From positions 1,364,001-1,428,000 of the forward strand of contig NZ_JACCAC010000001.1 in assembly GCF_013409425.1 (NCBI RefSeq): a stretch of 64,000 bases of DNA. The letters are read 5' to 3'. Position 1 is the stretch's first letter; each line of letters begins with the position of its first letter. Below are positions 3,290 to 26,020 of this stretch, piece after piece. The notes beneath the pieces were generated by a model. The model was not told the origin of the DNA. It saw only the letters and a program-made list of their open reading frames with translations, and did no database searches. The DNA comes from Nocardioides perillae. GTDB taxonomy: Bacteria > Actinomycetota > Actinomycetes > Propionibacteriales > Nocardioidaceae. Both the position numbers and the translations under genes were made by a program.

Positions 3290-3336
3290 CGGCTGTCGGT
3301 GGGTCGTGTGACCATCGTCGGCGGAAGGAGACGCAC

Positions 3337-4323: not shown

Positions 4324-4747
4324 CGACAAGAAGGTCCACGTCGGCAAGGTGGTCAAGCAGGGCGGCGAGGTCGCCACGGGTGCGTCGGGCATCAACGCAC
4401 TGCACAACCTCGTCCAAGCGGCGAAGGAAGTCTTCGTCGTCCACGAGGAGGAGAGCACCAAGCGCAAGCGGCTTGACGCGTACGAGGCCACGGAGGTTGC
4501 GAGGATCAGGGCTGCGGAGAGCGCCCTCAAGGACTACTTCGCGCAGGTCTTCGCCGAGCGGCGCCACGTGATCGACGAGAGCTTCGAGCGGTTGGACCGT
4601 GCCATGGAGGACGGCGATGCTGCCACGGTGCACCAGGTAGTGCGCGGCATCGTGGACATCGCGCAGTCATCGCCGCTCGCCGACCTCGGGGACCTCGGAG
4701 AGATCCGCAAGGCCCTCGACGACCCGGACCAGGTCTGGGAGCTCTGA
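4316..4747 (+). CDS. Small helical partner protein, unknown function
   Basis: 143 aa from a GTG start inside the previous gene (8-base overlap), so translation is coupled. The protein is acidic and almost entirely helical. A central block with ALKDYFAQVFAERR is followed by an IVDIAQSSPLADLGDLG segment and ends in DPDQVWEL, a pattern I associate with uncharacterised conserved proteins. No signal peptide or membrane segment is present, so a cytosolic partner, antidote or adaptor for the glycine-rich upstream protein is plausible. Function is not known. The start was chosen because the next in-frame candidates would remove the conserved N-terminus and lose the overlap. Confidence 0.7.
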   Translation: MTDDKKVHVGKVVKQGGEVATGASGINALHNLVQAAKEVFVVHEEESTKRKRLDAYEATEVARIRAAESALKDYFAQVFAERRHVIDESFERLDRAMEDGDAATVHQVVRGIVDIAQSSPLADLGDLGEIRKALDDPDQVWEL

Positions 4748-4862
4748 AGCTCCAGCGCGAAGCCTGTCGCACGAGGTCAGGCAGCACTCTGCGCTATCGG
4801 CGGACGTGCGCCCTCGCCCCGCCGTACCGTTGCGCCGCCGGACGACGCGCAGGGGAGGGCCC

Positions 4863-5376
4863 ATGTCGATCGAGCAGGCGGTGCGGGCGACGCTCGCCGC
4901 TCATCCGTGGAGCAGCAAACGAGTCATCGGCGGTCTACGGCACCATGAACGGCGACGAGCGAGAGCTCTTGTTGCCTGCCTTCAAGGAGCGCGACACCAC
5001 GGTCCTCACCGCGCCCCGCGTGCTCGACGAGGGCGTCGACGTGCCGGAGGCGGACCTCGGCGTCATCGTCAGCGCGAGCAGCAGCAAGCGCCAGATGATT
5101 CAGCGCATGGGCCGCGTGCTGCGTCTGAAGCAGGGCGATCGCACGGCGCGCCTTGTCGTCCTCTTCGCTGAGGGAACCGTGGAGGACCCCCGAGAGGGGG
5201 CTTACGAGAGCCTCATCGGCTTCGCGTGGGAGGTCGCCGACGAGGCGGAGGTCTTCGCGTCCTCGGCCTCCGTGCCGCGCGTGCTCGAGTTCCTGCGTCC
5301 GACGTTCGACGGGCCCGAGGCGCCCTCGACCCGGGACCGCGGCTGCGCCCCGTCGTACGCCCCGCGGCCACGTTGA
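4863..5376 (+). pseudogene. Remnant of an SF2 helicase (start plus C-terminal RecA domain)
   Basis: An ATG at 4863 follows a good GGGGAGGG ribosome site and opens a frame (MSIEQAVRATLAAHPWSS...) that is soon out of register. From about 4918 a different frame carries a helicase C-terminal domain: VYGTMNGDERE, then TAPRVLDEGVDVPEADLGV (motif V region) and SSSKRQMIQRMGRVLRLKQG (motif VI), continuing to 5376. Walker A and DEAD-box parts are absent, so hundreds of codons have been deleted between the true start and the C-domain. An SF2 helicase fits a lost brxHI-like or other defence helicase, but family assignment is uncertain. The C-terminal fragment alone (ATG 4945) is unlikely to be an active helicase. 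Confidence 0.65.
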
Positions 5377-5495
5377 GGAGCACCGCTCCCTGCAGTCCGG
5401 CGGGCACGATCGCCCGTTGATGTGTGCCGAGTGGCGCGATTCCGCAGCACTGTGTCGGTGGCTCGACCTAGGTTGCTGCGGAGCAAGGGGGATCG

Positions 5496-8400: not shown

Positions 8401-8543
8401 CTGACCTCCCGGGCCTCTACGGCCGCGCCCTCGTCGCTGCCTCGGGACGGCCGCCGACGGCCGATCGACGCACGCGACTGCTGCGTTACGCCGACGTCCC
8501 TCCCGACCTCGCCGGTCACGTCTACCACCTCCTGAGGAGCTGA
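5496..8543 (+). CDS. DruH-like large defence protein (Druantia type III candidate)
   Basis: 1015 aa, ATG start preceded by AAGGGGGAT. No catalytic motif is recognisable. The N-terminus has a [14 protein letters not shown] block followed by [15 protein letters not shown]. The middle (about 280-600) is beta-rich, with [15 protein letters not shown] and [19 protein letters not shown] segments. A CxxC pair (CTGCG, near residue 673) with Cys/His near 642 suggests a zinc ribbon. The C-terminal third is helical with winged-helix-like stretches. The stop is 2 bases before the downstream helicase gene, so the two are one operon. In Druantia type III a large protein of unknown function (DruH) precedes the DUF1998 helicase DruE; position and size fit, but sequence homology to DruH could not be tested here. 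Confidence 0.62.
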
Positions 8544-8545
8544 AC

Positions 8546-11500
8546 GTGCGCCCCGTCCCCGCACCGCACCAGGTCGCGTCGTCCCTCGAGGACGACCTGC
8601 TGTCCTACATCGACACCGCCTACTGGCTTCGGGACCCCGAGGTGATGACAGAGCGGAGAGCCGTCCTCACGGCGCCGGGCACGCTCTTCCAGGAGCCCCT
8701 GCTCGAGCCCGTGCTTCCATATCCGGGGACGGTCGACGCAAGGACCACCTGTGTCCGAGCGGGGTTGTCGGAGTCCGAAGCCGACGTGCTGCTCCGCAGC
8801 GTCTTCGGCGAGACCGCTGCTGTCGGGATGAAGCTCCGCCAGCACCAGGCCGACACGATGCTGTGCTCCCTGTCAGAGGGCGAGGGCGCACGCCACCCCG
8901 TGGTGACGTCCGGCACCGGCTCGGGGAAGACGGAGTCCTTCCTGCTGCCGGTGCTCGCTAGGTTGCTGGTCGAGGCTCGCGGGTGGTCCGCCGACGAAGA
9001 GCTCCGCCCATGGTGGGACTCCCAGCCGCTCAAGTGGCGTCCCACGCGCTCGGGCGGACGTCCTGCGGCGGTGCGGGCCATCGTCCTCTACCCGATGAAC
9101 GCCCTGGTCGAGGACCAGGTCGCACGTCTTCGGCGCACGCTGCGGCGGCTGGAGCGTCTGGGCGGGCCGCGACTCTGGTTCGGCCGCTACACCGGGGCGA
9201 CGGTTGGACGCTCCGGCATGCCGAGCGGCGGTCGGCACAGGGACCTCGTGAAGGTCGCGGGTGAACTTCGGGCCATGTGCCAGGAGATGGACGACTTGGC
9301 CACGGCTGGCGACGACCTGACGTCACAGCTGACAGATCCACGCGCGGTCGAGATGGTGACGCGCTGGGACATGGTGGCGGCCCCCCCGGACGTCCTGGTG
9401 ACGAACTACTCGATGTTGAACGTCATGCTCATGCGACAGGTCGAGCAGCCGATCTTCGAAGGCACTCGTGCTTGGCTCGCGGCTGACGGCGACCGAGTCG
9501 TCACCTTGGTCGTCGACGAGCTCCACCTGTACCGGGGCACTCAGGGCGCTGAGGTCGCCATGATCGTCCGGAACCTGTGCGACCGCCTGGGACTGGCGCC
9601 GGACAGCCCGCAGCTCCGCATCATCGCTACAAGCGCGTCCTTGGACGACGACCGTGGTGACTACCTGCAGTCGTTCTTCGGGACGCCAGCGGAGCGCTTC
9701 ATGACGGTCCCCGGCCAGCAGGCCGAGCTCGGGGTCCACCGCCGGCTGGACCCCGTTCAGGTGCGACGAGATCTCGACAGCGGCGACATCGGCGGCCTGG
9801 ACCGTGACATCGCAGCGGCGTGCTTCGACGGGACGCCTGGCGCGCCGCTTCGCGCGACCGCCCTCTCGACGGTGGCGGACCGGCTGTTCGGCAACCGCGA
9901 CCACGACGCCCTGCTCGCGGAGGTGCTCGCTCGTCTCGGTGACCAGCCCGCGGAGGGACAGATCCCCTTCAGGACCCACCTCCTCCTGCGATCGATGCGA
10001 GGGATGTGGGCGTGCTGTGATCCGTCGTGCACAGAGGTCGAGCCCGCGGCCTCAAGGGCAGTCGGCAAGTTGTACGCCCGCCCGCGGCACTTCTGCCGGT
10101 GCGGCGGACGTGTCCTCGAGCTGTTGTACTGCGACCACTGCGGTGACCTCGGACTCGGCGGCTACCTCATCTCAGGCGGGGAGGACGGCTGCTTCCTCGC
10201 GGCGACTCCGGCGGACGTCACCCCCGACGCTGAGAAGGTCGTGTTCCGGCGGCCTGCCAGCTCCTACGTCTGGTACCGACCAGGTCTCCCCAACCACCTG
10301 CCGACCTGGGAGCACCCCAGCCCCGGTGACACCAAGATCAGGTTGACCTTCCTCCCGACCGAGCTGCACCCGCGGCTCGGCTACCTCGACCACACTTCTC
10401 GCACGGACGCCACCGGCGTGACTTTGTCGTGGAGCGGCGGTCCTCCTGGCTGGGCACCGCCTGCGCTACCTTCGAGGTGCCCCTCCTGCGGCCACGCGGA
10501 CGTGCAGCAGCGGTTCCGGCAAGGCGTCGTGCGGTCGCCGGTCCGTGCCCACACGCAAGGCACCGACCAAGCCGTCCAGCTGCTCGTGTCGAGCGTGGTG
10601 CGGGCAGTCTCCACGTCCGAGCGCCCGGAGAAGACGATCGTCTTCACCGACAGTCGTGAGGATGCCGCCGCCACGGCGATGGGGCTGGCCGAGAACGGCT
10701 TCGCCGACCTCGTGAGACAGCTCGTCGGTCGCAGCCTGGAGAAGGAGGACGACGTCGTCCGCGTGCTGCGCGACGGGGCGGTCGGCGGCAGGCTCGCTCC
10801 GGGTGAGATGGCACGTTACGACCAGCTCCGCCAGCAGCACCCCGAGGTCAGTCTCGCCTACGCGGCGATGGCCATGGGGTTGGCGCAACCGGTGCACCTC
10901 GAGCAGGTCGCGGCTTTCGAGGCGAGCCGGGGGAGGGGGCGCGCCACGGCGTGGCCAGACCTCGTGGACCAGCTGATGGTCGAGCTGGTCGCACTGGGGG
11001 TGCCGCCGGGGGGTCAGCGAGCGATGCTGCTGCAGCTCGAGGACGGGTCACCGTGGCACCGGGTCTTCGAACCGCCCGCGCCAGGAGATTGGGATCCTCT
11101 CCCTCACGGGCCAGCGCGCCAGAAGTACCACGAGCTCTATCGACGCTACCTGGTGATGGCGCTCGGTGACGCACTCCTCGGCGGTCGCGGACGTGACCTC
11201 GAGATGACGTTGGTCGGCCACCTGTCGCTCCGAGGCGCTGCCGAGCGGATCCCACCGGACCTCGGGGAGGTGCTCCCGACGGCGCTCAGGCTGATGGGAG
11301 CGAGCAACCGGTGGTCGCCGGGTCACCAGCCGGCGAAGACCGTTCTCCCCCGGCGCGTCAAGGACTACCTCCTACGGGTCTGCGCCTCGCGAGGGCTGCC
11401 GGCCGAGGAACTGGAATCGTTGGTGGTCGAAGCACTGGGGCTGGTGACCGAGGAACGGAACTTGGCGCTAGGTCGTCTCGACCTGCCGCTCGAGGTCCAA

Positions 11501-13744
11501 GCCCCGGGTGAGCAGGTGTGGATCTGCCAGTCGTGCGCCGCCCGTCACCTCCACCCCTCAGCAGGTGTCTGCATGCGGGAGAGATGTACCGGCGCGCTCG
11601 TGGCACAGCCGTTGGCGCCTCTGGCCGCAGACGACTACTACGTAAGGCTGGGTCGACTCACGCCTGCCCGGATGGCTGTGGCTGAGCTGACGGGCCAGAC
11701 GAGCCCTCCATCGTTGGCTCGTGCGAGGCAACGCCGGTTCCGGGGAGCGCTGCTGCCGCGTCCGCAGGAGAACGAGCGCAGCTCTCCGCTCGACGTGCTG
11801 AGTGTGACGACGACGATGGAAGTAGGTGTCGACATCGGGTCGCTCAGCTCGACGGTGATGGGAAACATGCCTCCGCAGCGGTTCAACTACCAGCAGAGAG
11901 TGGGGCGCGCGGGTCGCGCGGGTCAGCCGTTCTCGTACGCAGCGACGCTGTGCCGAGACCGTTCGCACGACGACTACTACTTCAACGAGTCGATGAGGAT
12001 CACCGGAGAGGCGCCACCCCAGCCTTTCCTGGACACACAGCGTGTGGCGATCCTGCGACGCGTCGCCGCGGCCGAGGTGCTCCGTCAAGCGATGTTGTCA
12101 TTACCTGAACCGCCTGCTCCGGGTCGGAGCGTGCACGGCTCCTTCGGGCGCGCCGCAGACTGGGGCGCGCGCAGACAGGGAGTGGCCAACTTTCTCGCGA
12201 CGTCCCCAGCGGTGGAGCGTGTTGTTCGTCGACTCGCCGCCCACACCGGAGTCAGTGACGTGGAGGTCGACGACCTGGTGTGCTGGTTGCGCCAGCGGCT
12301 GGCCGACCGCATCGACGCTGTCGTCACGGACCCGCTTTTCACCCAGTGGGAGCTGTCGGAGCGGCTGGCCAACGCCGGTGTCCTGCCGATGTTCGGCTTC
12401 CCGACGCGAGTGCGCACCCTGTGGTACCCCGCGGGCGGAGGCAAGGTGGAGGAGGTGTCGGACCGGCCGCTAGGGCAAGCCGTGTCCTTGTTCTCATCAG
12501 GCTCCCTCGTGACGAGGGACGGTTGGGTCTACGAGGCCGACGGTTTCGCCGACTACGACCACCGGGGGCGGTCACGAAACCCGCTCGAGGCACGCGTCGA
12601 GATCAGGCGGTGCACGGTGTGCAGCTTCGCGGACTCCGACACCGGGACGGCGACGAGACCGGGGTGCCCAGTCTGCGGTGGGCAGGTGCGGGCGTCGACG
12701 ATGTTCCAGCCAGGTGGGTTCCGGGCCGGCGGCCGCAGCGACAGACGGGGCGAGGACCTCGAGTCGACGAGTGCCAGCAGGCCGGTCCTCGGTTGGGTCG
12801 AGACGTCGAAGGACGCGCTCCGGGCAGGAGCCATGGACTTGTGGGTCGTCGACCAGGGCAAGCTCCTGACGGTGAACGACAACGCCACTCGATTGTTCGC
12901 GACAAAGCGCGAGGCGGACGGCAGCTATGTGGTGGTCGAGGACGGCGGCGGGGGGCCCAGAGGTGCCATCGGTGAGGTCAGGGTGACCGACGCCCTGCTG
13001 ATCCTGCCCAGGGACGTCTCGCTGCCCGGAGGCGTCGTCCCCACGCTTCGTCACGAGTGCCGGAACGGCGGCCCCGCACTGCACTCCTTCGCGGAGGCCC
13101 TTCGGCGCGGTGCGCAGGCCGAGCTCGACATCGAGCCCAATGAGATCACGGTCGGTCTGCAAGGCAGGCGAGTCCACGATGTCGTGACGGCCAATCTCTA
13201 TGTCGCGGACACGTTGGAGAACGGCGCTGGGTACGCCTCTGAGCTTGGTGTCCCTGACCGTCTGCTCACCGTGGTCCGCAGGATCGCCGACGGTCTGGGC
13301 CAGACATGGACGAGCGACGCCCACACGTCGTGTGACTCTGCCTGCCCCGACTGCCTCCGCGCTTACGACAACAGGCACATGCATCCGGTGCTCGATTGGC
13401 GGCTCGCTCTCGACGTCGCCGATCTCGCGCTAGGCCGTGAGCTCGACGAAGCACGGTGGCTCGGGCTGGCGCCCGAGGTCGTCGATCGCTTCATCACCGC
13501 CTTCGGTGGAGTGCTCGGCGGGGTAGCACCTGGGGAGGTCAACGGGTTGTCCTACGTACGCCACGGCAAACGCGCAGTCGTGCTCACCCATCCGATGTGG
13601 CGTTCCGACAGCCCACAGCACGTCCCGCGGTTGCAGGAGGTCGTCTCTGCACTTCGCAGCGAGAGCGCGTCGGCAGTCGCGACCCACGACGTGCGTTCGG
13701 CGCGCTCTTACCCTGAAGGCCTTTACCGACTGCTGCTCGATTGA
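8546..13744 (+). CDS. DruE-like giant DEAH-family helicase with DUF1998 C-terminus
   Basis: 1732 aa, GTG start with GAGGAG 8 bases upstream. Motifs in order: Walker [11 protein letters not shown] (about 121-130), motif [12 protein letters not shown] (DELH 324-327), motif III TSAS, a large insert with Cys-rich zinc ribbons (about 490-560, CDPSC...CRCGGR...YCDHCGD), FTDSREDA (helicase domain 2), [14 protein letters not shown], motif [13 protein letters not shown] (about 1115), another zinc ribbon CTVC...CPVCGG (about 1352), and the DUF1998 Cys signature [16 protein letters not shown] (about 1595). This layout and length match DruE of Druantia defence. Related DUF1998 helicases occur in DISARM and other systems, but no DrmB, DrmC or methylase is adjacent. 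It probably translocates on DNA with the upstream partner. Confidence 0.82.
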
Positions 13745-13753
13745 TCAACTTTT

Positions 13754-13760
13754 GGGAAGG
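13754..13760 (+). promoter_or_regulatory. Ribosome binding site deciding a TTG start
   Basis: GGGAAGG lies 7 bases before the TTG at 13768. An earlier in-frame TTG at 13741 overlaps the helicase stop but has no ribosome site at the right distance. The 13768 start is therefore preferred. Confidence 0.6.
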
Positions 13761-13767
13761 CATCGTC

Positions 13768-14409
13768 TTGCGCAACCGATTGGTCACCCTGCTCGACCTG
13801 GGCCTCGACGAAAGTTTCAATGCGGCAATGGCATTCGTGCAGGGGGTGCTGAGCAACGTCAATGCTGGCTACACGGTTCCGCACCTCGATGTGGACTTCG
13901 TCCGGTCGAGGGACCCGCTGACGATCCAGGGAGCCATCTCGTCGAGGTGCGACGTGCTGCACGTGATGGCGCACGGTGACCACTCTGCGAGCCCGTCTTT
14001 CGTGTCGTCCGACGGCGCGACCGAGGTGGACCTCGGAGTCCTGGCTGAGGGCCTTGCGCGAGGCCTCGACGGGATTGCGGGCGGTGCGGTGGTCATTGCC
14101 GACGGCTGCAAGACCGGTATCGGCATCTGGCAACGAGCGATCCGGGACTGTCTCGAAGGCGAGATCACCTACATCGGGACCACCGCCAACATCGGATGGC
14201 ACGAGTCAACGGTCTTCTGCTCGGCCTTCTACGGGTCGCTGCTTCGGGACCGAGGCCGCGGAAGGTCGGCTGCCCAGCAAGGTATGGACGCAGCAGAACG
14301 CGCCGCCAAGGCATACGAGGTGCTGACCGACAGGAAGTGCCCGTTCAGGGTGTCGACCCTGACTCCGAGCAGTCGTGCCAAGAGGGCGATACGCGGTGCG
14401 AACGGGTGA
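13768..14409 (+). CDS. Caspase/CHAT-like cysteine protease, third gene of the Druantia-like operon
   Basis: 213 aa. It carries the pattern of the caspase-CHAT fold: a hydrophobic strand ending in DVLHVMAHGDH (catalytic His69) and, 45 residues later, AVVIADGCKTG (catalytic Cys114). Then comes an EITYIGTTANIGW strand and a helical FCSAFYGSLLRDRG segment, as in CHAT domains where an FY-x3-L helix follows the active site. At about 210 aa it is a bare protease domain without sensor repeats. It starts 23 bases after the helicase stop on the same strand, so co-transcription is likely. Base composition is visibly less GC-rich than its neighbours (for example the first 120 bases), suggesting separate acquisition. 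Caspase-like proteases act as abortive-infection effectors in several defence systems; that role here is inference. Confidence 0.72.
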   Translation: MRNRLVTLLDLGLDESFNAAMAFVQGVLSNVNAGYTVPHLDVDFVRSRDPLTIQGAISSRCDVLHVMAHGDHSASPSFVSSDGATEVDLGVLAEGLARGLDGIAGGAVVIADGCKTGIGIWQRAIRDCLEGEITYIGTTANIGWHESTVFCSAFYGSLLRDRGRGRSAAQQGMDAAERAAKAYEVLTDRKCPFRVSTLTPSSRAKRAIRGANG

Positions 14410-14600: not shown

Positions 14601-15338
14601 TCAGTGAGGGCTTGTCGCCCGCGGCAGCGGGAACGGCCCCGACCCCTGCACCCGCCGCGGCGGCCTGAACACCTGAGCCGGGCGCCCGACCGACTCCTGC
14701 GACAGCACCTCGTTGCCCGACTTGTCGACGACGGGCTCGAGGAACTCCCGCATGCGACGGTTGAAGGTGTCGCGCTTGAGCGGTTCGCCCAGCACCGCCT
14801 CGTGGGCGTGCCGCAAGCGGCTCAGCGTGAACGGCGCGCGCAGCAGCCCGTCAGGGTCTGGCAGCCGCTCGTAGCGGCGCCGCATCCGGCGCAACCCGGT
14901 GGTCACCATGTCGTCGTGGTCGTAGGCCAGCGGCGTCCGGGTGACCCGCCGGCCTCGCGAGGCGTCGCCGCGCACCTGCACGGTCTGCGCCTCGGGCGTG
15001 AGCCGGGCCAGGTCGTGCTCGGTGATCGCGGCGGACCACGCCAGCGACACCACCCATCCGCGCGGATCGCGCGACGGGTCGTCGTACACGCCGAGCATGC
15101 GGAGGTCGAGTCGCCGGGGGCGGTGGCCGAGCTTGACCTCGAGGACGTCGCCGACGGTCTCGGTGACCCGCTGGCACTCACGCACGAAACGACCCGGCAG
15201 GGCTAGGGGGTCGGGCCCGGCGTCGAGGGCGACCACGCCCAGTGCGTGGCGCCCTCCCTCGGGATCCGGCACCAGCGTGAAGAGCGCCAGGTCGACGGCG
15301 AGGTTGGGTCGGGGGTAGTCGTCGAGGGGGCGGCTCAC
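14601..15338 (-). CDS. NrtR-type Nudix transcriptional regulator
   Basis: 245 aa. The N-terminal two thirds is a Nudix-like domain (NLAVDLALFTL strand, LALPGRFVRECQRVTETVGDVL in place of the Nudix box). It lacks the REx2EExGU catalytic residues, so it is expected to bind ADP-ribose or NAD-like ligands rather than hydrolyse them. The C-terminal third is a winged helix (FTLSRLRHAHEAVLGEPL, then FNRRMREFLEPV). This is the architecture of NrtR repressors of NAD metabolism. The GTG at 15338 is chosen because AAGGTGA sits 5 bases before it; upstream TTG or GTG starts have no ribosome site. It is divergent from an ARPP-1 gene, and a perfect inverted repeat lies between them, so autoregulation and control of the NAD/ADP-ribose cluster is likely. 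Confidence 0.8.
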   Translation of the reverse strand: MSRPLDDYPRPNLAVDLALFTLVPDPEGGRHALGVVALDAGPDPLALPGRFVRECQRVTETVGDVLEVKLGHRPRRLDLRMLGVYDDPSRDPRGWVVSLAWSAAITEHDLARLTPEAQTVQVRGDASRGRRVTRTPLAYDHDDMVTTGLRRMRRRYERLPDPDGLLRAPFTLSRLRHAHEAVLGEPLKRDTFNRRMREFLEPVVDKSGNEVLSQESVGRPAQVFRPPRRVQGSGPFPLPRATSPH

Positions 15339-15369
15339 GCCGGTCACCTTAGCGAGCATCTGCGGGAAG

Positions 15370-15426
15370 TTTGCGCAGACCTGCGCCAATGTCTGCTACA
15401 GTCCTTTTTGTGAGGATCTGCGCAAA
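15370..15426. promoter_or_regulatory. Candidate NrtR operator: 10-bp inverted repeat in a divergent promoter
   Basis: TTTGCGCAGA (15370-15379) and TCTGCGCAAA (15417-15426) are perfect inverted copies 37 bases apart. A degenerate third copy, CCTGCGCCA, lies at 15380-15388. They flank a -10-like TACAGT at 15397. The site sits between the NrtR-type regulator and the ARPP-1 gene, the usual place for an autoregulatory operator. Binding by NrtR is inferred from position. Confidence 0.6.
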
Positions 15427-15450
15427 GCGGATCCGGTGAGGAGGTGGACG

Positions 15451-16299
15451 ATGCTCCACGTAGGACAGGGCACGACGATCGGGGCACTGACCGTGTTCCC
15501 GGTGTGGAACGGCCGGGCGGGCGTCCGGCACTACGTCACGGACGCGGCGGCGCTCGAGGTCGCCGAGGTCGAGGGCGGCGCGGTGCCGCAGCTCGGCGCC
15601 GTCAACCGGGGCAGCAAGGACGTGCTGGTGCTCGACGGCCAGCTCTTCGAGGGCGGGTGGCAGCACCGGATGGCGGCGCGCTCCGCCGTCGTCGGGGCCG
15701 GCGAGCGCGGCACCGTCGACGTCGTGTGCGTCGAGCAGGGACGCTGGGGTGGGGCGCGCGAGCAGGTGACGCGCGGCCGCCGCGCCTCGACCTACGTCCG
15801 TGGCGGTCTCGACGCCCGCGGCGCGGACGACGCGCAGTCCGAGGTGTGGCGCCGGGTCGGCCGCGACGCCGTCGGCCTACCGACCGGCTCGTTCGTCGAG
15901 CACCTCGACCGCGCCGGCGACCGGCTGCAGCGACGGGTGGCCCGTCTGCGCCCGCTGCCCGGGCAGACCGGCGTGCTCGTCGGCGTCGGTGGGCACCCGC
16001 TGCTGCTCGAGGACTTCGACCACCCGCGCACGCTCGCCGAGCAGTACGACGCGATCCTGCGCGCCGCCGTTCTCGACTGCGCCGGCCGCCCGGCCGAGCC
16101 GACGCCCGGGCGGCGCGCGCGACGGGTGGTCGAGCGGTTGAGCCGGGTGCGCCCGGAGGGGCCGCTCGACGCGGACGGGCGCAGCCGGCTGCTGCGCGCC
16201 CGCACCGACCGGCTCGACGTCGCCGTGCTCGAGCGCGACGGGCGACGCGTGCACCTGCGCGTCGTCTCGCCCCACCACCCGGTGGTCGTCGGTGCCTGA
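15451..16299 (+). CDS. ARPP-1 domain protein (NAD/ADP-ribose associated)
   Basis: 282 aa, ATG start with GGAGGTG 4-5 bases upstream. It shows the marks of the ARPP-1 family (ARG- and Rhodanese-Phosphatase-associated): an N-terminal PVWNG...Y.T strand, then the signature VLVLDGQLFEGGWQHR, where a strand and turn precede a conserved His-Arg. The family is known mainly by gene association with ADP-ribosylglycohydrolases and Cys phosphatases; its reaction is not established as far as I know. Both partner types are encoded about 2 kb downstream, here fused in one protein. A soluble cytosolic protein with no signal peptide. It overlaps the next gene by 8 bases. Confidence 0.72.
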   Translation: MLHVGQGTTIGALTVFPVWNGRAGVRHYVTDAAALEVAEVEGGAVPQLGAVNRGSKDVLVLDGQLFEGGWQHRMAARSAVVGAGERGTVDVVCVEQGRWGGAREQVTRGRRASTYVRGGLDARGADDAQSEVWRRVGRDAVGLPTGSFVEHLDRAGDRLQRRVARLRPLPGQTGVLVGVGGHPLLLEDFDHPRTLAEQYDAILRAAVLDCAGRPAEPTPGRRARRVVERLSRVRPEGPLDADGRSRLLRARTDRLDVAVLERDGRRVHLRVVSPHHPVVVGA

Positions 16300-17273: not shown

Positions 17274-18605
17274 ATGAAGCTCGATGCCCACCTCGGCGTC
17301 GACGTCGTCGCCCACGAGGCCGACGACACCGTCGACGTCCTGCTCCACCTCGAAGCGCCCACGGCGCACACCGTCGACCGCGCGCCCAGCACGCTGCAGG
17401 TCGTGCTCGACCGCAGCGGCTCGATGGCCGGCCGTCCGCTCGACGGCGCCAAGCGGGCCCTCGTCGCCCTCGTCGAGCGGCTCGAGCCGACCGACAACCT
17501 CGGTCTTGTCGTCTTCGACGACACCGCCGAGGTGGTGGTGCCCGCCGGACCGCTCACCGACAAGGCCGGGGTGCTCGACCGCATCCGCGCCGTCCGGCCC
17601 GGCGGCACCACCGACCTGAGCGCCGGCTACGTCCGGGCGCTCCGCGAGGTGAAGCGTGTGTTCGCCGAGCCGTGGGACGTGCTGTTCCCCGACGGCGATG
17701 ACCCGCAGGCCACCACCGGCCGCGCAGGAGCGACGGTGCTGATCATCAGCGACGGTCACGTCAACGCCGGGCTGCGCGACGTTGACCGGTTCGCCGACCT
17801 CGCCCGCGCGGCGTACGCGGACCGGGTGACGACCACGACCCTCGGCTACGGCGAGGGCTACGACGAGACGTTGCTCAGCGCGCTGGCGCGCGGCGGCAGC
17901 GGCAACCACGTCTTCGCCGCCGACCCCGACGCCGCCGGGGCGGCGATCGCCCAGGAGGTGGACGGCCTGCTGGAGAAGGTGGCGCTGGCCGCGTCGTTGA
18001 CGGTGCGGTTCGCGCCCGAGGTGGCGATGCTGCGGCTCTTCAACGACCTGCCCGCCCAGCAGGTCGGCGACGGAGCCGTCATGGTCGAGCTGGGTGACCT
18101 GTGGTCCGGGGAGGCGCGCAAGCTGCTGCTGCGGCTGCACGTCCCGGCGATGCCGGCCCTCGGGCTGGCGCAGGTCGCCTCCCTTGACCTGCAGTGGGTC
18201 GAGCTGCCGGGTCTCGTCGAGCACACCGTGTCGCTGCCGATCAGCGTCAACGTGGTGCCGGGCGACGAGGCGGCGCAGCGGGTCCCCGACCCGACCGTGC
18301 GCTCGGAGGTGCTCTTCCAGGAGGCCCAGGAGGCCAAGCGCAAAGCGTCGGAGGCGTTCGAGCGGGGCGACCTCGACGTCGGCCGCACCTACCTCGGTGA
18401 GACCGAGCTGCTCCTCGACGGGGCCGCCGGGCTGCTCGACGGCGCCGGCAAGGCCGAGCTGGACGCCGAGCGCGCCGACGTGCGACGGATGCAGCAGCTC
18501 AGCACGGAGGCGCCGCCGACCCACGTGTCGAAGCTGACGCGGGCCAGCTACCACCAGCAGAACCGCAAGCGCGGTCGGCGCCGCGAGTCGGACGGTGGCC
18601 AGTGA
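17274..18605 (+). CDS. von Willebrand factor type A domain protein
   Basis: 443 aa, ATG start with a GGGGGA ribosome site. The vWA domain starts at about residue 40 with the full MIDAS motif DRSGS (46-50), a conserved Thr in GGTTDLSAG (about 118), and VLIISDGHVNAG (about 160), so it should bind a divalent metal and a protein ligand. A beta-rich domain follows and then a helical, Arg-rich C-terminus. No signal peptide, so cytosolic. The stop overlaps the start of the ADP-ribosylglycohydrolase gene by 4 bases. vWA proteins in such clusters usually act as scaffolds or with AAA ATPases, but no MoxR ATPase is adjacent. The 246 bases upstream (17028-17273) show no gene. Confidence 0.82.
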   Translation: MKLDAHLGVDVVAHEADDTVDVLLHLEAPTAHTVDRAPSTLQVVLDRSGSMAGRPLDGAKRALVALVERLEPTDNLGLVVFDDTAEVVVPAGPLTDKAGVLDRIRAVRPGGTTDLSAGYVRALREVKRVFAEPWDVLFPDGDDPQATTGRAGATVLIISDGHVNAGLRDVDRFADLARAAYADRVTTTTLGYGEGYDETLLSALARGGSGNHVFAADPDAAGAAIAQEVDGLLEKVALAASLTVRFAPEVAMLRLFNDLPAQQVGDGAVMVELGDLWSGEARKLLLRLHVPAMPALGLAQVASLDLQWVELPGLVEHTVSLPISVNVVPGDEAAQRVPDPTVRSEVLFQEAQEAKRKASEAFERGDLDVGRTYLGETELLLDGAAGLLDGAGKAELDAERADVRRMQQLSTEAPPTHVSKLTRASYHQQNRKRGRRRESDGGQ

Positions 18606-20125
18606 GCCCGATGCGCCCGGTGGAGCCGACGCGGCTGACCACCTCGCAGACCGACCGCGCCGCCGGGGTGCTGCTCACCGCTGCGTGTGGTGACGCGCTC
18701 GGCGTGCCCTACGAGTTCGCCCGCCCGCCGGCTGCCGACGAGCTCGCCGAGATGCTCGGGGGCGGCCTGGGCGACGGCGCGCCGGGGGAGTGGAGCGACG
18801 ACACCGCGATGGCCGCTGCTATCGGCCGGGTCGCGGCGACCGGGGCCAACCTGACGAAGCGCGAGGCGCTCGACGAGGTCGCGCTCGGGTTTCTCCAGTG
18901 GTTCGACGGCGGCCCGCCCGACGTCGGCATCCAGACCTCCGCCGTGCTGACGGCGAGCGCGCGGCGGCTGGCGGCCGAGGGTGGTCCGCCGTCCGAGGTC
19001 CTGGCCGCCGAGGCTGCGGCCTACGCCGAGCGCAACCCGCGCTCGGCCGGCAACGGCGCGCTCATGCGCACCGGCCCGGTGGCGCTGGCCCACCTGCGTG
19101 ACCGGGACGCGTGTGCCCGCGCGGCCCGCGCTGTTGCCGAACTGACCCACGCCGACCCGCTGGCGGGTGACTCGTGCGTGCTGTGGTCGGAGGCTGTCCG
19201 CGCGGCGGTGGTCGACGGCCGGCTCGACGTCGAGGCCGGGCTCGACCTCATCCCGGGCGAGCGCCGCGAGCAGTGGGCGGCGTGGCTCGCCGAGGCGCAG
19301 GACGTGTTGCCCGACGGGGAGGTGCCCGGGCGGCGCTTCACACCCAACGGGTTCACGGTCACGGCGCTGCAGGCGGCGGTCGCTGCGGTCACGGGCACGC
19401 CGGTGCCTGACCTGCGACCGCGCGAGGCGTCGTACCCGTGCCTGCACCTGCAGCACGCGCTGCACGCAGCGGTGCGCATCGGTGACGACACCGACTCGGT
19501 CGCGGCGATCGCCGGGGCGTTGCTCGGTGCACGGTGGGGCGCGAGCGCGGTGCCGTGGCGCTGGCGCCGGCTCGTCCACGGCTGGCCCGGGCTCGACGGG
19601 CGTGACCTCGTCTCGCTGGCGACGAAGGCGGCCCGCGGCGGTCGGCTCGACAGCAAGGGGTGGCCGGACGTCGACGACGTGCCCTACGACGAGTACGCCT
19701 CGCCTCACGTCGTGCTGCACCCCTACGACGACGGCGTGGTGATCGGGACGACGCGCACTCGCGGCGCGGGCGTCGACGCGGTCGTCTCGATGTGCCGGGT
19801 GGGCCGCGCGCAGGCGTGCTTCGACGGCGCGACCGAGCTGGTCGAGTCGCGGCTCATGGACGCCGAGGACCGCGACGCCAACCCCAACCTCCACTTCGTC
19901 CTGGCCGACACCGCCGACGCGGTGCGTGGGCTGCGGGCGGAGGGCAAGCGGGTGCTGCTGCACTGCGTCGCCGCCCAGCAGCGGACGCCGAGCGCGGCCG
20001 TCGCGTACGCCGTCATGCTCGGCGCCGACCCGGAGGAGGCGCGCGAGCGGGTGCTCGCGGTGTTGAACGAGGCGCGAGGGTACGGGCGGGTGTGGGAGGC
20101 GGCGGGGGAGGTGCTGGCCCGCTGA
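18602..20125 (+). CDS. ADP-ribosylglycohydrolase fused to a Cys-dependent phosphatase
   Basis: 507 aa. Residues about 15-330 form a DraG/ARH-type ADP-ribosylglycohydrolase: GDALGVPYEF, the metal-binding WSDDTAM (SDDT 65-68) and the second metal motif IGDDTDSVAAIAG (about 294-306). These remove ADP-ribose from proteins or nucleic acids. Residues about 355-507 are a dual-specificity/rhodanese-like phosphatase with CX5R loop HCVAAQQRTPS (Cys455, Arg461). The fusion unites the two enzyme types after which ARPP-1 is named, and an ARPP-1 gene is 2.3 kb upstream. Start is GTG 18602 (4-base overlap with the vWA stop) or ATG 18611. Both active sites look intact. The natural substrate cannot be told from sequence. 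Confidence 0.88.
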   Translation: MSPMRPVEPTRLTTSQTDRAAGVLLTAACGDALGVPYEFARPPAADELAEMLGGGLGDGAPGEWSDDTAMAAAIGRVAATGANLTKREALDEVALGFLQWFDGGPPDVGIQTSAVLTASARRLAAEGGPPSEVLAAEAAAYAERNPRSAGNGALMRTGPVALAHLRDRDACARAARAVAELTHADPLAGDSCVLWSEAVRAAVVDGRLDVEAGLDLIPGERREQWAAWLAEAQDVLPDGEVPGRRFTPNGFTVTALQAAVAAVTGTPVPDLRPREASYPCLHLQHALHAAVRIGDDTDSVAAIAGALLGARWGASAVPWRWRRLVHGWPGLDGRDLVSLATKAARGGRLDSKGWPDVDDVPYDEYASPHVVLHPYDDGVVIGTTRTRGAGVDAVVSMCRVGRAQACFDGATELVESRLMDAEDRDANPNLHFVLADTADAVRGLRAEGKRVLLHCVAAQQRTPSAAVAYAVMLGADPEEARERVLAVLNEARGYGRVWEAAGEVLAR

Positions 20126-20327
20126 AGGGTCCGGATTCGGCGCCCGGCGTTGTTCGTTCTGGCTGTCCGCTTGCCGTCGGCGCCGCTCCGGCGTGCCCTT
20201 TTCAGCACCGAGCAAACTCTTGGCGTCGAATTGCGTCATGTTTGGACTGTGGGCGCGTGTCACCCACGTTCGGCACGGGAACGGCCCGTGTCTCGGGATC
20301 ACGGCCAAGGCCGCGGAGGGGTATGTC

Positions 20328-20957
20328 GTGCGTGTGTTGGTGAGGGCCGTCTCGGTCCTGCTGATCGGCGGGGTCCTGGCAATCGGAGGGGTCGTTGCGC
20401 TGACCGCTGTCGGCCTGGTCGATTTCAAGTGGCCGTTTTCCACCACGACCATCGACCGGAGTCAGCCGGTGCTGCTCGAGTCCGTGCAGGACGTCAATCG
20501 TTACGTCGGCGCTGTCGGGAACCTCGAGGTGGTTGTCGACCTGGAGCGAGACGTTGAGTGGTTGCCCGGTTTCCTAGCCGGTGAGCGTTCCCTCTTCGTC
20601 GCCGCTGGCACAGTGGACGCGTACGTTGATCTGGCGAGCCTGGAGGCCGGTGACCTCGTCGTGTCCGACGACCGCACCAAGGTCACCATCACCCTCCCGT
20701 CCGCGGTGCTGGGCGAGCCAAATCTCGACCAGGATCGCACCTACTTGTTCGACCAGGAACGGGGCGTCCTGGACCGTCTTGAAGATGCCCTTTCGACGCC
20801 GGATCAGCAGGAGCTCTATCAGGAAGCGGAGTCGAAGATCGGCGCCGCGGCGGAGGCGTCCGATTTGAAGGATCAGGCCGAGGCCAACACCGAGGCGATG
20901 CTGGTCGGCATGTTCGCCGGGATGGACATGACGACAACGGTCACCTTCGATGAGTGA
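20328..20957 (+). CDS. DUF4230 membrane-anchored protein
   Basis: 209 aa, GTG start 6 bases after GGAGGGG. One N-terminal membrane helix (about 6-28, VSVLLIGGVLAIGGVVAL) is followed by an extracytoplasmic or membrane-proximal DUF4230 domain: LESVQDVNRYVGAVGNLEV, then VAAGTVDAYVDL and VTITLPSAVLGEP, and a helical end rich in Glu/Ala. DUF4230 has no known function. The stop overlaps a GTG that could start the next gene. Composition is somewhat lower in GC than the region before it. The 202 bases upstream (20126-20327) carry no gene and should hold the promoter. Confidence 0.78.
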   Translation: MRVLVRAVSVLLIGGVLAIGGVVALTAVGLVDFKWPFSTTTIDRSQPVLLESVQDVNRYVGAVGNLEVVVDLERDVEWLPGFLAGERSLFVAAGTVDAYVDLASLEAGDLVVSDDRTKVTITLPSAVLGEPNLDQDRTYLFDQERGVLDRLEDALSTPDQQELYQEAESKIGAAAEASDLKDQAEANTEAMLVGMFAGMDMTTTVTFDE

Positions 20958-21013
20958 ACGCATTGACTGACCGCGGCCCGCTGGGTCGGCATGACGAGAA
21001 CGGGGGAATCGCG

Positions 21014-22297
21014 GTGGCTGGGAACGAAGCAGCGGAGCGTGTCGAACTACAGGTGATCGCCGACGACGACGGTGTGGCGGTGCTCGGTCCGCCGGCCGAG
21101 GTCGAACGCTTCCTCGTCGCGGAGGGACTGGTCGACGCCCGGCCGCTCGAGCTCTCCCGACTGCATGGAGCGGCCAGCGTGGGTGGTGCCGTCGCCCAAG
21201 CCGGCTCGAGCATCGCGGCGGACTCCGGTCGCTGGGTCAAGCTGACCAAGGAGTCGGCGAAGGCGATCGAGCGACACGGGCTCCGACAGAGCTCGAAGAG
21301 CGGCCTGACGACCGGCGTCATCAGGGGCCCGAAGGGTCAGGTGAAGGGGTTCGTCGAGTTCGCCAGGGGACCGGGGGCGTCGCTCACCAACCCGGCGGTG
21401 CTCGCGGGTGCTGCGGGGATCATGAGCCAACTCGCCATGCAGCAGGCGATGGACGAGATCACCGACTACCTCCAGCGCATCGACGCCAAGCTCGACGACG
21501 TCCTGCAGGCGCAGAAGGATTCGGTCGTGGCGAGGCTCGTCGGATCGGGCTTCGTCATCGACGAGGCGGTCACCGTGCGCAACCGGCGCGGCCGCGTCGA
21601 CGAGGTGACGTGGTCGAAGGTGCAAGCAGTGCCATCGACCATCGCGGAGGTGCAGGGTTATGCGTTGGCGCAGCTCGACGCGCTGGCGCAGAAGCTCGAG
21701 GGTGCTCGCAGGGTCGGCACCATCGCCGACGTCGTCCAGGAGGCGGAGGGCAAGACGCAGGAGTGGCTCGCAGTCCTCGCGCGCACGTTCCAGCTCCAAG
21801 ACGGGATCGCGGTGCTCGAGCTGGACCGGGTGCTGGACGCGGCGCCGGAGGAGCTCGATGCCCACCGCACCGGGCTGCGGGAGGCACGCCAGGACCGGCT
21901 CCACCTCATCGAGCAGGCGACCCGCCGGCTGCTCGACCGGATCAGCGAAGCTGCGACGGTCGCCAACCAGAAGGTGCTCCGGCACCCGTCGGCCTCGCCC
22001 ACAGCTGTCGGCGCAGGGGAGAAGGTCACCCGGAAGATCGAGGACTTCTACGAGTTGCTCGGGTTGTCCGGCGAGCGTCGGGAGATGGAGGTGCGGCGGT
22101 GGACCACGGCTGCCGGGGAGGTCCGTGACCGGGCGCTCGAGCAGGGCGTCGACACGGCCCAAGCCGTTCGCCGCCGAGGTGGTGCCGTGGCGGGCACCGC
22201 TCGCGACGGCGCCCGAGATGCTCGCGTTCGGCTCGGAGCGCGGTTGAAGCTCGTGCGTGGCGCCGGTCCAGACGAAGTGGACGACCCCGACGAGTGA
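21014..22297 (+). CDS. Uncharacterised protein with hydrophobic helix and coiled coils
   Basis: 427 aa from GTG 21014, which has GGGGGA 6 bases upstream; an earlier GTG (20954) would overlap the DUF4230 stop and cannot be ruled out. A small N-terminal beta-alpha domain (ELQVIADDDGVAVLGPP) is followed by a hydrophobic helix (NPAVLAGAAGIMSQLAMQ, about 134-151) and then DEITDYLQRIDAKLDDVLQAQ, a heptad coiled coil. The rest is long helices. I recognise the type as a conserved actinobacterial hypothetical but know no function. It is coupled to the DUF4230 gene and may form a membrane complex with it. Confidence 0.7.
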   Translation: MAGNEAAERVELQVIADDDGVAVLGPPAEVERFLVAEGLVDARPLELSRLHGAASVGGAVAQAGSSIAADSGRWVKLTKESAKAIERHGLRQSSKSGLTTGVIRGPKGQVKGFVEFARGPGASLTNPAVLAGAAGIMSQLAMQQAMDEITDYLQRIDAKLDDVLQAQKDSVVARLVGSGFVIDEAVTVRNRRGRVDEVTWSKVQAVPSTIAEVQGYALAQLDALAQKLEGARRVGTIADVVQEAEGKTQEWLAVLARTFQLQDGIAVLELDRVLDAAPEELDAHRTGLREARQDRLHLIEQATRRLLDRISEAATVANQKVLRHPSASPTAVGAGEKVTRKIEDFYELLGLSGERREMEVRRWTTAAGEVRDRALEQGVDTAQAVRRRGGAVAGTARDGARDARVRLGARLKLVRGAGPDEVDDPDE

Positions 22298-22927: not shown

Positions 22928-24319
22928 ATGGGGGATGCACGACAGGCGTCGTGGGGGCGCGCGGTGGACGCGGCGTGGCTCGCGTTCCGACAGCAGCTCG
23001 CCGACCACCTCGCGGAGTTCGAGGACGGCGCGAAGCTGGTGATCGAGCTCGAGATGGGCGTCGACCACGACGACCTCGACGGGTCGCTGCCCTACGTCCA
23101 GTTCGTCGGCTGGGACGACGGCCGTCAGGTGAGGGCCGAGGTGTCGTCGCAGCACTACCTCGACCCGCGGTACGCCGTGGGACCGCACGGTGCGCAGGTG
23201 CTGCGCAGCGTGGGCTGGGAGCCGCCGACCCACGCGCCGGACGAGCAGCCCGACGACGGCTCGTCCAACTGGTGGGCGGACCACGAGCTCCGCGAGGCCG
23301 ATCTCGCGGCCTGCCGCGCCACCGTCGCCCTGCGCGACGTCTTCGGCGCGCCGCACCCGTCGTTCCTCCGCACCGACGCCCGCCTGCAGCTCACCGGCGC
23401 CGCCGGCGGCGGTGGGGCGGAGGCCACCGCCGACGAGCGTGGGGCAGGTGAGGGCGACGACGAGGAGCCGCCCGTCCGCTTCCCCCACGGGGTCGACGAG
23501 CTGCGGGGGATGGTGGTCGAGGCGCTCGGGCGGGTCGTCGACCACCCGGTGCAGCTCGACGATGACGGTGACGTCCCGCTGGTCGCCGGCCGGAGCATGC
23601 TCTTCGTGCAGGCGCTGCCGGACGAGCCGACCCTGCAGCTGTGGTCGCCGCTCGTGAGCGGGGTCGACGACCCGGACCGCGCCGCAGACGAGGTCGCCCT
23701 GCTCAACCGCGACGTCCTCTTCGGCGCGTTCGTGCTCACCGACACGGGCGACGTGCACTTCCGGCACCACCTGTGCGCGATGCCGTTCGCGCCGCTGCAG
23801 CTGCGACTGGTGGTGGCGCGGGTGCTCTCCGACCTGGACCGTCGTGCCGGCGACCTCGTGCGGCGCGTCGGCGGGACGCGGTTCTTCGACGACCTGGAGC
23901 CGGACGAGGACGACGACGTGCCGGTCCTCGAGGTGAGCGAGGGCGCCGACCCCGACGAGCACCACCACAGCCACGACGAGGCGGACGGTCGCCTCCGCGG
24001 TGAGCTGCTCGTGCTGCGCGAGCTGATCGCGGCCGGGGCCGCGGCACCCGCGACGGTGGCGGCGCTCTTCGACGGTGACCTCGAGCTGATGGCGCTCGTC
24101 GTCGACGACCTGCTCACCGACCCGCCCGCGACGCTCGACGTCGCCGACGCGGTCGCCGCGCTGCGCGGTGGCCTCGTCTTCGCCGCGGAGCGCACGGCTC
24201 GGTTGCGCTGGTCGCGGTCGGCCCGCCCGCCCGGGCGGCGGCCGCGGTCGCAGCAGCAGGAGCTGCTCACCTCCGACGACCTGGGCGAGCCGGTGCTCGA
24301 CCTCGGCGGCGATGGGTGA
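22928..24319 (+). CDS. YbjN/TY-Chap (type III chaperone-like) domain protein
   Basis: 463 aa, ATG start; the purine-rich GAAGGGGGATGG lies 5 bases upstream. The N-terminal domain (about 1-150: WGRAVDAAWLAFRQQLADHL, LPYVQFVGWDDGRQVRAEV, NWWADHELREADLAACRAT) and the middle domain (about 190-330: LRGMVVEALGRVVDHPVQLD, VLFGAFVLTDTGDVHFRHH) look like tandem YbjN/type III secretion chaperone-like folds. An acidic, His-rich linker (about 330-350) leads to a helical C-terminus. Such domains bind other proteins and occur next to conflict-system genes. It is 42 bases before the NERD-helicase gene, so one operon is likely. Confidence 0.68.
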   Translation: MGDARQASWGRAVDAAWLAFRQQLADHLAEFEDGAKLVIELEMGVDHDDLDGSLPYVQFVGWDDGRQVRAEVSSQHYLDPRYAVGPHGAQVLRSVGWEPPTHAPDEQPDDGSSNWWADHELREADLAACRATVALRDVFGAPHPSFLRTDARLQLTGAAGGGGAEATADERGAGEGDDEEPPVRFPHGVDELRGMVVEALGRVVDHPVQLDDDGDVPLVAGRSMLFVQALPDEPTLQLWSPLVSGVDDPDRAADEVALLNRDVLFGAFVLTDTGDVHFRHHLCAMPFAPLQLRLVVARVLSDLDRRAGDLVRRVGGTRFFDDLEPDEDDDVPVLEVSEGADPDEHHHSHDEADGRLRGELLVLRELIAAGAAAPATVAALFDGDLELMALVVDDLLTDPPATLDVADAVAALRGGLVFAAERTARLRWSRSARPPGRRPRSQQQELLTSDDLGEPVLDLGGDG

Positions 24320-24361: not shown

Positions 24362-26020
24362 GTGCCTCGACTGATGCCCGAGCAGCCGACCTTCACCACC
24401 GACTCCGAGCGCGAGGTGTGGGAGCGGCTGCGCGACGGGCTGGGCGACGACGACGTGCTGATCGCGGGGCTCCGTCTGACCGACGTCGACAAGGACCACG
24501 AGGCGGACCTGGTGGTGCTGATGCCCGACTTCGGGGTGCTGGTGATCGAGGTCAAGGGCAGCAGCGTCTGGTTCGACGACGGCGGGTGGTGGCAGCAGCG
24601 CGGCGGCAAGGCGCGCAGCATCGACCCCGTCACACAGGTGCGCACCACCAAGTACGCCGTCCGTGACTACGTCGCCCGCGACCCGCGGTGGCAGCGCGCC
24701 AACCACGTCTCGTGGGGCCACATGCTCGCGTTGCCCTACAGCGAGGTCGCCGACGACTTCGACGCCCCCGACTGCCCGCGGTGGGCCGTGCTCGACCGGC
24801 ACGACCAGGTCGACCTCGCCGAGCGGCTGCGGGCGATGGCGCCGCGCACCTGGCAGGGCAAGCCCCCGCCCACGGCAGAGCAGGTCGAGGTGATCGCCGA
24901 GATCCTGCACGGCCGGCCGTCGGGCACGGCGTACGACGTCAATGCCGAGTCGGACGAGCGCGCGGCCGCGGCCGACCGCCTGACCCAGGAGCAGGCGACC
25001 ATCCTCGGCGTCACCCGGCTGCTCAACCGCGTCGAGGTGCGCGGCGGCGCCGGCAGCGGCAAGACGGTCCTCGCACTGCAACAGGCCAAGCAGCTCAGCC
25101 ACGGCGGGCACGGCAAGCCGCGTCAGCGCGTCGCGCTGCTGTGCTACTCGCTCGGCCTGGCTGCCTACCTCAAGCGGGTCACCGAGTCGTGGCACCGCAA
25201 GGACCGGCCCGCCTTCGTCGGCACCTTCCACGACTTCGGTCGGCAGTGGGGAGCGCCCGAGGGCGACCGCCAGGACAGCAGCTTCTGGGAGCAGGAGCTG
25301 CCGCGGACGATGGGCGAGCTGGCCGAGGGGCTCGCCGACAAGGACCGCTACGACGCGATCATCGTCGACGAGGCGCAGGACTTCGCCGACGACTGGTGGC
25401 GCCCGGTGCTGAAGGCGTTGCGCGACGAGGAGCAGGGCGGGCTGTACGTCTACTCCGACGAGAACCAGCGCATCTTCGCCCGCTTCGGCCGCCCGCCGGT
25501 GCAGCTCGTCCCGCTCGTGCTCGATCACAACCTGCGCAACACCCGGCAGATCCACGAGTCGTTCGGCCCGCTTGCGCCGTCGCGCATGTACGCCCGCGGC
25601 GGCGACGGGCCCGCCGTGCGGTTCATCGCCGCGAGCACCGAGGACGCCGTCGAGGTGGCCGACGACGCGGTCCTCGAGCTCCTGGACGCGGGGTGGCGGC
25701 CCGAGCACGTCGCGCTGCTCACCACCGGGCAGCGCCACCCCGTGCAGGTCGAGCGCACCGAGCACCGCGACCAGGACGGCTACTGGCAGAGCTTCTGGGA
25801 CGGCGACGACGTCTTCTACGGCCACGTCCTCGGCTGCAAGGGCCTCGAGCGGCGCGCGGTCGTCCTCTGCCTCAACGAGTCGACGGTCCGCGACCGCGCT
25901 CGCGAGCGGTTGTACGTCGGGATGTCGCGCGCCACCGACCAGCTCGTCGTCGTCGGTGACCCGGCGTTCGTCCGCCAGTACGGCGGGGTCGAGGTGGCGA
26001 AGCGGCTGGGGGTCGGTTGA
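24362..26020 (+). CDS. NERD nuclease-UvrD-type helicase fusion
   Basis: 552 aa, GTG start after GAGAGGGTG. Residues about 10-130 are a NERD domain: HEADLVVLMPDFGVLVIEVKG holds the D...E-x-K nuclease motif (EVK about 63-65). A UvrD-like SF1A helicase core follows: Walker A RGGAGSGKTVL (about 226-236), motif Ia region, DEAQDFADDWW (motif II, about 335), HNLRNTRQIHE, GCKGLERRAVVLC (motif V) and LYVGMSRATDQLVV (motif VI). All main motifs are intact. NERD-helicases act on DNA, probably cutting or unwinding foreign or damaged DNA; several short defence loci include them. The YbjN-like gene upstream is the likely partner. Confidence 0.86.
   Translation: MPRLMPEQPTFTTDSEREVWERLRDGLGDDDVLIAGLRLTDVDKDHEADLVVLMPDFGVLVIEVKGSSVWFDDGGWWQQRGGKARSIDPVTQVRTTKYAVRDYVARDPRWQRANHVSWGHMLALPYSEVADDFDAPDCPRWAVLDRHDQVDLAERLRAMAPRTWQGKPPPTAEQVEVIAEILHGRPSGTAYDVNAESDERAAAADRLTQEQATILGVTRLLNRVEVRGGAGSGKTVLALQQAKQLSHGGHGKPRQRVALLCYSLGLAAYLKRVTESWHRKDRPAFVGTFHDFGRQWGAPEGDRQDSSFWEQELPRTMGELAEGLADKDRYDAIIVDEAQDFADDWWRPVLKALRDEEQGGLYVYSDENQRIFARFGRPPVQLVPLVLDHNLRNTRQIHESFGPLAPSRMYARGGDGPAVRFIAASTEDAVEVADDAVLELLDAGWRPEHVALLTTGQRHPVQVERTEHRDQDGYWQSFWDGDDVFYGHVLGCKGLERRAVVLCLNESTVRDRARERLYVGMSRATDQLVVVGDPAFVRQYGGVEVAKRLGVG

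Follow-up and report, generated by a model that had tools for sequence, protein, structure and literature searches.

A predicted ADP-ribosylglycohydrolase–phosphatase fusion from a defence island of Nocardioides perillae and its relatives in bacteria and viral contigs

What is the task of a protein that carries an ADP-ribosylglycohydrolase (ARG) domain and a CX5R phosphatase domain on the same chain? The question is posed by a gene of Nocardioides perillae located in the stretch of DNA analysed here, a window of 64,000 nucleotides (contig NZ_JACCAC010000001.1, positions 1,364,001 to 1,428,000) whose numbering is used below. The gene starts with GTG, and its first 4 nt (GTGA) overlap the stop of the vWA gene that lies upstream of it. 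A whole-genome search, covering one contig of 3.61 Mb, showed that the protein is present as a single copy.

18602–20125, plus strand: ARG-phosphatase fusion gene, an uninterrupted open reading frame of 507 aa
18665–19558, plus strand: ARG domain (PF03747, residues 22–319) with E38, D66, D67, T182-H183, D296 and D298
19655–20122, plus strand: CX5R phosphatase domain (residues 352–507) with the putative general acid D420, H454-C455 and R461

Two conserved domains in one chain

The initial annotation placed both domains in a single 507-residue chain, an assignment with which Pfam, the family profile and the structural models agree. Its residue numbers are also correct, with D66 lying within EWSDDT and C455 within HCVAAQQR. 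PF03747 (ADP_ribosyl_GH) matches residues 22–319 at 1.2e-48, with 166.7 bits against a gathering cut-off of 26.2. In an alignment of 37 rows (36 fused relatives and the query), each of E38, D66, D67, T182, H183, D296 and D298 is conserved in 36, and both Asp motifs align with their counterparts in 2cwc, a Thermus enzyme of known structure. Structure comparison of a six-sequence model of the fusion protein (pLDDT 75.1, pTM 0.81) with human ARH3 gave a Z score of 29.6 over 296 residues, and the model also resembles Tri1 (6drh, Z 29.1) and DraG (Z 26.7). The ARG domain has the fold and the dimetal-site residues of these ADP-ribosylhydrolases in common; in contrast, sequence identity to them is 18–24% and the focal protein possesses an additional phosphatase domain. 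The NCBIfam Tri1 and DraG models score far under their cut-offs on the focal protein (85.9 of 490 and 80.5 of 337 bits, respectively). Comparison of the fusion model also showed the ARG fold in chloroplast FtsHi motor subunits and a trypanosome mitoribosome protein (Z 19–27).

The phosphatase assignment cannot be made from the focal sequence by Pfam alone, because the DSPc score (PF00782, E 0.0086) is 16.3 bits against a curated cut-off of 33.5. DSPc is matched at E ≤ 0.01 by 34 of the 37 C-terminal domains of the family alignment (best 7e-13), and the family profile matches solved PTP/DSP chains, the best at 6e-11. A model of the phosphatase domain alone (pLDDT 83.6) aligns with DSPs over 131–136 residues with rmsd 2.3–2.4 and Z scores up to 16.9, the value reached by DUSP8 and DUSP28 (4jmk, 5y15); the fusion model gave Z 14.7 over 129 residues with DUSP8. 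D420, H454 and C455 are present in 37/37 rows and R461 in 36/37, the exception being a Pro in a Pseudonocardia row (L006). A second alignment, built from C-terminal domains and including two viral rows, shows no variation at the same D, H, C and R; for the Arg this holds only without L006, which that alignment omits together with L121, whose ARG is split over two frames. The typical DSP loop reads HCxxGxxR, with a Gly. The focal domain shares with the DSPc family the fold, the Cys-X5-Arg loop and a conserved Asp that precedes the Cys by 35 residues, and differs from it by Ala458 in place of the loop Gly and by the single-sequence Pfam score below cut-off. The position is non-Gly in most host relatives; the Gly is present in some rows from hosts and in the two viral rows of the second alignment.

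As the initial annotation proposed, both active sites appear intact, judged by the conservation of their catalytic residues in the 37-row alignment. The DSP- and ARH3-like folds establish neither activity nor substrate, and catalysis by either domain is a prediction from sequences and models. Matches to PTP-NADK (0.0091 for one alignment member, 0.044 for the viral protein L126) are too weak and were not counted as substrate evidence.

The operon, its regulator and a candidate operator

The fusion gene follows genes for ARPP-1 and a vWA protein, behind a divergent NrtR-like gene; two other genes separate it from a TY-Chap gene and a NERD-UvrD helicase gene.

6–1031: BrxC-like C-terminal part (BrxC, 227 bits), upstream of the ARG operon
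1028–3289: PglZ (680 bits), upstream of the ARG operon
2989–4323: PDC-M09A-like, upstream of the ARG operon
5496–8543: DruF2 (803 bits), upstream of the ARG operon
8546–13744: DruE2 (1408 bits), upstream of the ARG operon
13741–14409: 222-aa protein directly behind DruE2, with no Pfam match
14601–15389, minus strand: divergent NrtR-like regulator (Pfam NrtR_WHD, 7.3e-9)
15370–15389, no strand assigned: candidate operator TTTGCGCAGACCTGCGCCAA, a variant of an element conserved in relatives
15451–16299, plus strand: ARPP-1 (ARG and rhodanese-phosphatase-associated; PF20208, 1.8e-50 for 15436–16299)
17274–18605, plus strand: vWA-domain protein (PF00092, 9e-15; start picked by eye)
20193–20957: DUF4230 protein (1.8e-33), between the ARG operon and the TY-Chap gene
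20954–22297: 447-aa protein with no Pfam match, following the DUF4230 gene and before the TY-Chap gene
22928–24319, plus strand: TY-Chap3 and TY-Chap1 protein (PF22552, PF22551)
24362–26020, plus strand: NERD and UvrD-like helicase, recurrent near fused ARG genes

ARPP-1 and the NrtR-like gene are each the only copy in the genome. The ARPP-1 start, an ATG behind GAGGAGG, was picked by eye; the listed start of the NrtR-like gene is the TTG at 15389, and the real start probably lies further in. The Nudix part of the NrtR-like protein has no Pfam match. The TY-Chap gene is nearby, a position that does not imply co-transcription with the operon, and among PADLOC models the helicase best matches the DRT-associated NERD helicase (116.5 bits). 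Within positions 1–13744, BREX-like and Druantia II genes adjoin each other, and the ARG operon is located in a defence island, since a BrxC-like end, PglZ, DruF2 and DruE2 lie upstream of it. The 222-aa protein contains HVMAHGD and ADGCKTG stretches, which look CHAT/caspase-like. The focal protein itself matched 0 families among the PADLOC models, and a PADLOC-defined system for this gene was rejected on that ground.

An element upstream of the regulator is conserved among the relatives. Of 25 regions upstream of the NrtR-like gene (window included), 14 contain TTAGCGC/GCGCTAA, compared with a mean of 0.10 regions and a maximum of 2 in 300 sets of windows drawn at random from those loci; the loci being related, the 14 regions are not independent. 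The first gene behind the element is ARPP-1, TY-Chap or the ARG gene itself, depending on the locus. The window's own upstream region lacks the exact 7-mer and has a variant only, TTTGCGCAGACCTGCGCCAA at 15370–15389, with a further TCTGCGCAAAG downstream of it, and we infer that the former may serve as the operator. The uniqueness of the pattern in the genome is no independent test, because the pattern was drawn with the window copy in view.

Recurrence in host genomes, plasmids and viral contigs

An order-level search found a match of any kind in 101 of 293 genomes. Sixty neighbourhoods were fetched, mostly those of the best-scoring matches. A search for other fusions of the two domains, suggested with the initial annotation, found them in 31 of the 60 by profile (30 by single-sequence search) as well as on viral contigs; as weaker matches were left out of the fetched set, 31/60 is not a population frequency. 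NrtR is near 19/31 fused ARG genes vs 6/29 others, TY-Chap near 21/31 vs 7/29 and the NERD-helicase near 9/31 vs 1/29. ARPP-1 (6/31 vs 2/29, p = 0.26) and vWA (3/31 vs 2/29, p = 1.0) are not significant alone. Any of NrtR, TY-Chap, ARPP-1 or vWA accompanies 27/31 fused genes vs 9/29 others, with a p value of 1.4e-5 that is only rough because the loci are related. Plasmids also carry the family: 44 records match, 29 of them covering at least 80% of the query, and 30 of the 44 are from Streptomyces.

The two domains also occur apart. In four loci (L092, L102, L109 and L121) ARG and phosphatase are in different reading frames, which may reflect recent decay, split genes or sequencing errors. A separate CX5R gene (HCHMGINRGP) directly adjoins ARG at L071 and L073, both of which are ARG-only; such a gene is also present at L003 and L075, where ARG is fused. 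At L100 (7941–9863) a TY-Chap3 domain, not a phosphatase, is fused to ARG.

L071, 10101–10823: separate CX5R protein, HCHMGINRGP
L073, 7665–8816: separate CX5R protein, HCHMGINRGP
L075, 10385–11371: separate CX5R protein, HCHMGINRGP
L003, 651–1538: separate CX5R protein, HCHMGINRGP

Fused and ARG-only host forms are interleaved in a tree of 89 ARG domains, with 23 fused-host label changes, at least 11 of which are forced by well supported branches; the bootstrap is unsettled and several branches are long. The tree omits L004, L010, L147, L133 and L127, each taken as the same record as another locus or a near-copy of it, and the short L012 and L014. By identity the ARG closest to that of the window (73%) belongs to the ARG-only protein of L071.

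The family alignment matched 18 viral contigs, two with the full fusion, and two further scans brought the full fusions to five distinct uncultivated viral contigs (L147 repeats L146 and was counted once).

L125, 6004–7446: viral ARG-phosphatase fusion
L126, 1750–3330: viral ARG-phosphatase fusion
L144, 5998–7587: viral ARG-phosphatase fusion
L145, 5944–7401: viral ARG-phosphatase fusion
L146, 5839–7500: viral ARG-phosphatase fusion

Tail-sheath genes are present on L126, L144 and L146, and L145 has a helicase and a primase match; the phage identity of L125 is less certain. The viral fusions carry HCHAGxSRTG loops, and all five agree with the focal protein at H454, C455, R461 and in the ARG Asp motifs. 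They form one clade in the 89-domain tree (support 100/98); independent origin of the host and phage fusions is not claimed, since the placement of long-branch rows is unsure. Among 50,697 cultured-phage records, 0 cover at least 80% of either query, and ARG-only forms occur there.

Substrate and role of the fusion

The locus is of a kind already known. Iyer et al. (2022, Viruses 14:1977; PMC9503650) described 'ARG-centric' systems from genome comparisons, in which a phosphatase, mostly of the rhodanese-phosphatase superfamily, is coupled with ARG, fused or adjacent, in just over 55% of neighbourhoods, Nudix or WYL regulators occur in over 42%, and vWA, SseB, TY-chaperones and ARPP are neighbours. 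The two-step idea was already published in 2022, and the function given there, defence against viral ADP-ribosylation, is a prediction. The present locus shares with these systems an ARG fused to or beside a phosphatase of that superfamily, a Nudix/NrtR-type regulator, ARPP, vWA, TY-Chap and helicases. No linked ART was found in the systems described by Iyer et al. (PMC9503650); here KptA and DarT are absent from the genome and sirtuins are distant. The phage-encoded fusions, the shared element upstream of the regulator, with its candidate operator, and the defence-island setting beside BREX and Druantia neighbours appear to go beyond what that paper describes. A search of the open-licence literature found no experimental study or biochemistry of an ARG-phosphatase fusion.

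The explanation that we favour, with a probability of roughly 55%, is an NrtR-controlled, ARG-centric two-domain ADP-ribose eraser acting on foreign ADP-ribosylation. The ARG domain, as an ARH3/DraG-like dimetal hydrolase, would hydrolyse the bond that links ADP-ribose to a modified macromolecule. In the next step, the DSP-fold domain would dephosphorylate that damage product or a breakdown product, via a cysteinyl-phosphate. The divergent NrtR-like protein would repress the ARPP-1/vWA/ARG-phosphatase operon, and a rise in ADP-ribose or a derivative, for example upon ADP-ribosylation of host molecules by a phage or toxin, would release it. As phosphatase substrates we would prefer, in this order, a phospho-ribosyl product, a nucleic-acid end and a phosphoprotein. 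In favour of this explanation are the two folds with their conserved residues, the recurrent neighbours, the single NrtR-like gene and the element upstream of it in relatives, the lack of DarT and KptA, and the defence genes further upstream; against it speak the missing loop Gly, the non-significant association of ARPP-1 and of vWA when each is taken alone, and the inexact copy of the element in the window.

Part of the two-step reaction put forward in the initial annotation survives: both domains are present with conserved residues, and coupled chemistry is plausible and agrees with the idea of Iyer et al. (PMC9503650). The substrate that it named, ADP-ribose 1''-phosphate, is disfavoured. 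Its supply from the cell's own RNA repair is weakened because the complete genome has no match to KptA/Tpt1 (a control search finds matches in 3 of 14 named genomes), and we reject own tRNA repair as its source on the same ground; it may come from a phage or another foreign source. The free ADP-ribose that ARG releases has no terminal phosphomonoester, so ARG and phosphatase cannot work in series on unmodified ADP-ribose unless a further cleavage takes place. Self-made ADP-ribosylation may contribute, since two sirtuins, far from the focal gene, and one Macro protein are encoded elsewhere in the genome, and the ART search covered KptA and DarT.

Nucleic-acid end repair is an unlikely alternative, in which ARG would strip ADP-ribose from 5'- or 3'-phosphate ends of RNA or DNA and the DSP-fold domain would remove the exposed phosphate. 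The CX5R superfamily includes RNA-phosphatase members, and helicase and nuclease-like genes are nearby. By analogy, the Streptomyces coelicolor ARH-like SCO5809 is described as reversing phosphate-end ADP-ribosylation of RNA (PMC11833690). However, the genome lacks the KptA/Tpt1 that would create such ends, and no RNA-ligase or kinase was noted adjoining the focal gene.

About equally doubtful is an ordinary protein phosphatase controlling a signalling target such as the vWA or chaperone partner, the fusion merely co-locating two regulators. The nearest solved folds are indeed protein DSPs (DUSP8, DUSP28 and MKPs), but fold likeness shows no substrate, and PTPMT1 and starch glucan phosphatases are among the matches too. 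The separate CX5R gene directly beside ARG in the ARG-only loci L071 and L073 also argues against such a role, as it favours chemistry linked to ADP-ribose.

Slightly less probable still is a small-molecule role, in which the protein would act as a counter-signal or off-switch by clearing a soluble derivative of ADP-ribose that an immune NADase or cyclase produces. Such a role would fit host and phage alike, and the phages carry the whole fusion; a regulator of nucleotide-sensing type adjoins the host genes. Against it, an unsystematic look at the neighbours noted no TIR or other NADase, and Iyer et al. argue for macromolecular adducts as the preferred targets of ARG (PMC9503650). A DarT partner of the cell's own is rejected, since the genome has no DarT.

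The five viral fusions, the least expected part of these results, count against a purely host-protective role, which does not predict them. If the eraser role that we favour is true, bacteria would possess an inducible repair enzyme against the ADP-ribosylation that phages or toxins impose, and this enzyme would be carried by phages too. A bolder extension, which we regard as improbable, is that one two-step eraser is used by hosts and large phages against each other; its second step would dephosphorylate a phospho-ribosyl remnant, beyond the known ADP-ribosylhydrolases, and an ADP-ribose-sensing NrtR-type repressor on TTAGCGC/GCGCTAA arrays would switch the host version on during attack. With two active sites in one chain, a compact operon and a single candidate operator, the locus opens the 2022 prediction to a direct test that needs just one protein and one reporter.
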